From an uncultured bacterium (GTDB lineage: Bacteria > Cyanobacteriota > Vampirovibrionia > Gastranaerophilales > Gastranaerophilaceae), in contig CASELF010000028.1 of the NCBI GenBank assembly GCA_949288725.1, positions 1 through 48,414 on the forward strand: a DNA stretch of 48,414 bases. The letters run 5' to 3'. Made by a program: the position numbers and the translations under genes. Positions 46,867 to 48,414 of the stretch are shown here, piece by piece; position 1 is the first letter of the stretch; every line of letters begins with the position of its first letter. The notes under the pieces are model-generated. The model did not search any database. It had not been told where the DNA came from and was given only the letters and a program-made list of their open reading frames with translations.

Positions 46867-48168
46867 ATGATTACTTATTCTATTATTTTAATTTTATTGT
46901 TGCTGGTTATTGTTGCAATGTTTAGTGAACTTTTCTTATATGGATTAGTTTCTACGTTGCTATTTATAATATTGTTACCGTTTTATTATATTATTCGTGC
47001 AATAAGCGGTAAGTTCTTATATGGTTGGAGAGAAAAATTAGGGTTTTTCAAGGCTCCTGATTTAGGTCCAAAAGTTATTATGTATCATGGTGTTTCAGTT
47101 GGAGAAGTTATTGCTTTAGAAAATCTTATTAAAAAGACAAAGGAAGTTTTTCCTGATTATAAAATAGTTGTTACTACCGGTACAAAAACAGGTCAAGAAA
47201 TTGCTATCAAAAAATATTCCAAAATCGTTGATTTTATCACGTATTTCCCGTTTGATATACCTATTTGCGTTCAGGCTTTTCTAAGTAAAATTAAGCCTAG
47301 TGTTGTATTAATCGCAGAAACGGAATTGTGGCCTATTTTTGCATCTTTTTGTAATTTAAAAAATATTAAACTTTATACCATAAATGGTAGAATGTCAGAT
47401 TCTACTTATAAATTATAGAGATTGTGTAGATATTTTTTCAAAAAGATTTTAGTTAAATATACAAAGATTTTGACTCAAAGTGAAATTGACAGAAATAAAC
47501 TGATTTCAATAGGTGCACCTCCTGAAAAAACGTTTGTTATGAAGAATTTAAAATTTGATGTAAAAAGAACAAATGAAACTGTAGATATAGGACAAGACGG
47601 ATTTAGAGTAATTATTGCAGGTAGTACACATAAAACTGAAGAAGAAATTATAATAAATATTTTCAAAGAGAAGTTACAAAAATATTCTGATATAAAACTT
47701 CTTTTAGTCCCAAGACACACAACTCGCATACCGCAAATTGTTCCAGTATTAGAAGAAAGTAAAATAAATTATGGCTTTCGCTCCAAAGGTGATACTTTTG
47801 CTCAGAAAGATATTATAGTTTTGGATACTATGGGTGAATTGAGTAAAATGTATTCAATTTGTTATTTTGCATTTATTGGCGGAAGTTTTAACAATACAGG
47901 CGGTCATAATCCATTAGAGGCAACAGTTTATTCAAAACCAACAATAACAGGACCTTCTATTCATAACTTTAGAGATATATACTGGTTATTGTCACAGTCA
48001 AAGGCAGGAAAAATTGTAAAAACACCTGAAGAGTTAAGTGATTATATGGAAGTTTTGTTATCAGATAAAGAATTTTATGAACAGGCTTGTAAGGATTGCG
48101 AAACTATATTTAATGACCAACAAGGAGCATTAGATGTGGTTATTGAAGAGTTAAAGCAAGTTTTATAA
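46867..48168 (+). pseudogene. kdtA: Kdo transferase kdtA/waaA interrupted by an in-frame TAG
   Basis: WaaA adds Kdo to lipid A at the inner membrane. From ATG 46867 the frame encodes an N-terminal membrane anchor, then GVSVGEVIAL, TTGTKTGQEIA, FITYFPFDIP and ETELWPIFASF. It stops at TAG 47416-47418. The same frame continues immediately and supplies the whole second half: TQSEIDRNKLISIGAPPEKTF, VIIAGSTHKTEEE, LLLVPRHTTRI and FIGGSFNNTGGHNPLEAT. Total 434 codons, normal for WaaA, and no frame shift. It is a nonsense mutation, sequencing error or readthrough case. An upstream ATG (46834) precedes a TATAAT at 46852-46857, so 46867 is preferred. Confidence 0.85.
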
Positions 48169-48324: not shown

Positions 48325-48414
48325 ATGGGTATGGCAGCATCACAGGCGAGATTTTTAAGCCTGACAGCAAGAAAAAGTAACGTTGAATACGAAGGACAAC
48401 AAATCAACCAACAA
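48325..48414 (+). CDS. N-terminus of a protein resembling a Gastranaerophilales-specific family (partial)
   Basis: ATG 48325 opens a frame running to the window end, giving 30 residues that begin MGMAASQARFLSLTARKSN and continue with EYEGQQINQQ. AAAGGG lies about 9 nt upstream. I recall similar starts in hypothetical proteins of gut Melainabacteria; the function is unknown. The rest is beyond the window. Confidence 0.7.
   Translation, partial: MGMAASQARFLSLTARKSNVEYEGQQINQQ

Follow-up and report, generated by a model that had tools for sequence, protein, structure and literature searches.

The internal stop in a Gastranaerophilales kdtA gene is probably a consensus error of the metagenome-assembled genome

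The Kdo transferase WaaA/KdtA (PF04413) has been solved structurally for Aquifex aeolicus (PDB 2XCI/2XCU), and lipid A genes have been reported in the order Candidatus Gastranaerophilales (PMC4040986). The kdtA (waaA) gene described here resembles the characterized enzyme in being two-domain and full-length by sequence and model, in encoding an N-terminal membrane helix and in being single-copy in congeners, but differs from it by an in-frame stop at an invariant tyrosine, in this assembly only. A second point of comparison is provided by isolate genomes (no MAGs were tested), in which pseudogenes with internal stops were often assembly errors and low read quality raised the number of internal stops more than that of frameshifts (Cooley and Wright, 2024; PMC11017572). 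As in those spurious pseudogenes, we find lone stops in conserved genes of a fragmented draft, in greater number than in a close relative; in contrast to the isolates, which had near-identical neighbors, the nearest genome here is 87% identical. A combined literature query on internal stops in MAGs retrieved nothing.

The window, the whole stretch of 48,414 nucleotides that was analyzed, is contig C28 in full. This contig belongs to a fragmented metagenome bin of Candidatus Gastranaerophilales, the draft genome of a gut bacterium, and the named relatives are MAGs of the same order. The bin (G000) consists of 102 contigs with a total of 2.2 Mb, a completeness of 95.9% and a contamination of 3.8%. 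Its nearest genome, the sister species (G005), is collinear across the window at 87% nucleotide identity, and the KdtA proteins are 95% identical. kdtA is located at 46867-48168 on the forward strand, and is the only one of the 43 genes in the window that is affected by an internal stop. Translation yields 434 codons, comprising an internal TAG at codon 184 (47416-47418) and the terminal TAA. The upstream part (46867-47418; 183 codons plus the TAG) encodes the membrane helices and the greater part of the N-terminal Rossmann domain, whereas the downstream part (47419-48168; 249 codons) continues in the same frame, with the TTG at 47422 as its earliest possible start. Retranslation bears out the description in the earlier note of a gene intact except for one amber codon: both halves match PF04413 (E-values 3.6e-38 and 3e-6), the joined frame matches better than either alone (1.6e-51), and the gene is equal in length to that of the sister species, without gaps and with nothing lost between the halves. 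The best solved relative of the read-through protein is A. aeolicus WaaA (2XCI; 5.5e-33), which is matched along both domains. In the predicted model (mean pLDDT 86) residue 184 is placed in a helix (residues 178-186) of the N-terminal domain, outside the interdomain linker near residues 225-246. The frame is not a product of chance, because its 433 codons, TAG included, can be aligned over their full length with the kdtA of 34 congeners, present once in each, at 67-95% identity.

Comparison of the codon in related genomes, which had been proposed as a check, places the stop in this assembly alone. Tyrosine is encoded at codon 184 in all 60 readable loci, a set that includes some genes present twice, in two collections, and it occupies the position in 20 of 20 aligned proteins, among which the window's own codon 184 was entered as tyrosine and the other 19 are 53-95% identical to the window's protein. 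A full-length, stop-free kdtA is present in 34 of the 35 congeners, and the premature stops elsewhere in the gene of relatives that would have pointed to an ordinary pseudogene were found in none. The exception is congener G026, in which a search for kdtA gave no match; this genome nevertheless contains lpxC and lpxK, its kdsB is interrupted by a contig end, and the absence of kdtA is probably due to incompleteness. The kdtA alignment has 198 columns that are invariant among 28 congeners, and the present genome differs at a single one, the stop at codon 184. Downstream of the stop, 25 synonymous and 6 non-synonymous changes map to the branch of this genome vs. 28 and 5 to that of the sister, so that the second half is indeed undecayed, as had been noted. 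The gene shows no other lesion and no relaxed selection, its branch ratio matching that of the sister. The invariant columns and the changes beyond the stop thus indicate that kdtA was under normal constraint until now.

The stop in kdtA is accompanied by others in the same bin. In a gene-by-gene comparison of about 1.2 Mb each of the bin and the sister genome (599 orthologous genes, 217,473 codons), internal nonsense codons were found in six bin genes, at seven codons: kdtA, ftsH (two), dnaK, a HAD-type hydrolase gene, the gene for a 228-aa protein and a larE-like gene. In the reverse comparison, no internal stops were found in otherwise collinear genes of the sister, just stops at the extreme ends. 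The difference (6 vs. 0 genes) is of modest significance only (exact p = 0.03), and neither count includes an aldo/keto reductase gene with a frameshift in one genome relative to the other. The bin therefore has more internal stops in conserved single-copy genes than its close relative, a pattern expected of spurious pseudogenes. In ftsH (C27:112345-114246) a TAG at codon 596 and a TAA at codon 599, nine bases apart, lie near the 3' end, tightly clustered with the replacements V586L and R589S, and the 36 codons beyond show no decay; dnaK (C27:45415-47262) has one TAA, at codon 534. Both genes are single-copy in the bin and their stops are unique among 30 genomes: in the 29 other genomes searched for each, none of the ftsH matches (29, one partial) or dnaK matches (27) has an internal stop. 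As both truncations are close to the C-terminus, they might be tolerated by the cell.

Taken together, the TAG in kdtA is probably a base-level consensus error in a metagenome-assembled genome, one of several in this bin, a reading that rests on sequence comparison. It is the most likely explanation because the same draft contains lone stops in other indispensable genes, and because kdtA shows purifying selection on both sides of a stop that falls on an invariant residue. The imperfection of the bin as an assembly, with its many contigs, its contamination and a foreign contig (see below), was also counted in its favor. Base-calling error had been listed in the earlier note as one option among others, and the unique stops in ftsH, dnaK and other genes now make it the best one. 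The unique stops would then originate in the sequence data and not in the organism, whose true kdtA probably encodes a normal, uninterrupted Kdo transferase that would add Kdo to lipid IVA. Viewed alone, the stop in kdtA resembles the loss of an essential step in LPS synthesis; beside the stops in ftsH and dnaK it appears as a problem of sequence quality, and comparable lone stops in this bin should be given no weight without read support.

Two possible signatures of error were considered and rejected. Transversions are involved in each of the seven nonsense changes, but a proportion of 85% is already predicted for nonsense changes from neutral sites, so the spectrum does not discriminate. Similarly, the TTATA-x-A context common to the stops in kdtA and the HAD-type hydrolase gene was dismissed as a mark of systematic error, as such changes are not in excess. 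A nonsense match on C63 was dropped, since the ORF has a poor ratio of synonymous to non-synonymous changes and is probably non-coding. On C31 (L233, 6400-9200) the larE-like, aldo/keto reductase and 4Fe-4S genes adjoin and carry a stop or frameshifts relative to the sister; either genuine decay or low sequence quality could underlie these lesions. The frameshifts affect two neighboring genes and, if they are genuine decay, speak against the error reading.

The bin contains a second, intact kdtA on contig C86 (L109, L258, L259; 57.7 kb), which we considered as a backup copy and rejected. This contig also carries a second enolase gene and a second alanine racemase gene (the native copies are on C17 and C63), its kdtA is 80% identical to a different group of loci, and no stretch of high identity to the sister genome was found, from which we conclude that it is contamination from another genus. 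Its GC content is 34% (first 20 kb) vs. 31% for the window.

Among the alternatives to a consensus error, a real and very recent nonsense mutation in kdtA, or a minor strain variant placed in the consensus by the assembler, is the main rival, possible but unlikely. A single substitution would suffice, the undecayed downstream half fits this explanation equally well, and E. coli strains without the entire waa locus, able to grow under restricted conditions, have been constructed (PMC8151780). Carrier cells would have no Kdo transferase, or would get by on lipid IVA that bears no Kdo. This explanation nonetheless requires ftsH, dnaK and three more genes of the bin to have acquired nonsense mutations independently, and has to be reconciled with a kdtA that is whole in nearly all congeners. 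It is improbable that the bin represents an actual strain in which Kdo transferase, and with it the Kdo on lipid A, was lost only just now but the diderm envelope and the remaining pathway were retained.

Pseudogenization of kdtA as part of an ongoing loss of LPS in the lineage, another of the options raised from the sequence, is very improbable. It could draw on lpxC, for which a search of the bin gave no match. In the sister genome, however, lpxC lies with lpxD, fabZ, bioD and bioA in a 9.7-kb interval that corresponds to the space between the bin contig ends C80 and C27, both of which are collinear with the sister up to their termini; C80 breaks off within a gene that the sister has in full, and the C27 end maps within another gene. 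The genes of the interval are therefore probably unassembled or unbinned, and a deletion is not indicated: the simplest account of the missing lpxC is a gap in assembly or binning, and we rejected its absence as a sign of LPS loss. Moreover, lpxK and kdsB are intact in the bin, and kdtA is without relaxed selection. Because of the same gap, the lipid A and biotin pathways of the bin seem incomplete but probably are not.

Readthrough or suppression of UAG, giving full-length KdtA, would be consistent with the open and conserved frame beyond the TAG, but is extremely unlikely. The suppressor tRNA that it had been suggested to look for was not found: all 57 tRNA genes identified in the bin have ordinary sense anticodons, and none has CUA. 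A weak 58th candidate below the family cut-off (L111:5221-5303; 28 bits), perhaps a degenerate tRNA-Tyr, does not have CUA where the anticodon loop is expected. TAG is an ordinary terminator, ending 151 of the 748 ORFs with a length of 200 aa or more (20%), in agreement with the earlier view that general recoding is unlikely. Furthermore, the unique stops of the bin comprise TAA as well as TAG codons and stand in place of different residues (Tyr, Leu, Glu and Ser) instead of one consistent residue, so that no single suppressor or recoding explains them, and recoding as their common cause is excluded.

A split enzyme, produced as two proteins by termination and reinitiation at the same-frame TTG 3 nt past the stop (47422), is hardly credible, as the TTG is not preceded by a convincing Shine-Dalgarno sequence, none of 60 relatives is split at codon 184, and the break would fall within the predicted helix of the N-terminal Rossmann domain and not in the linker, which makes a functional split enzyme unlikely.

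Beyond kdtA, the window closes (48325-48414) with the start of a protein beginning MGMAASQAR, of which a paralogue is found on C80 (L232:6204-7259); this repeated family may be the reason that the contig ends here.
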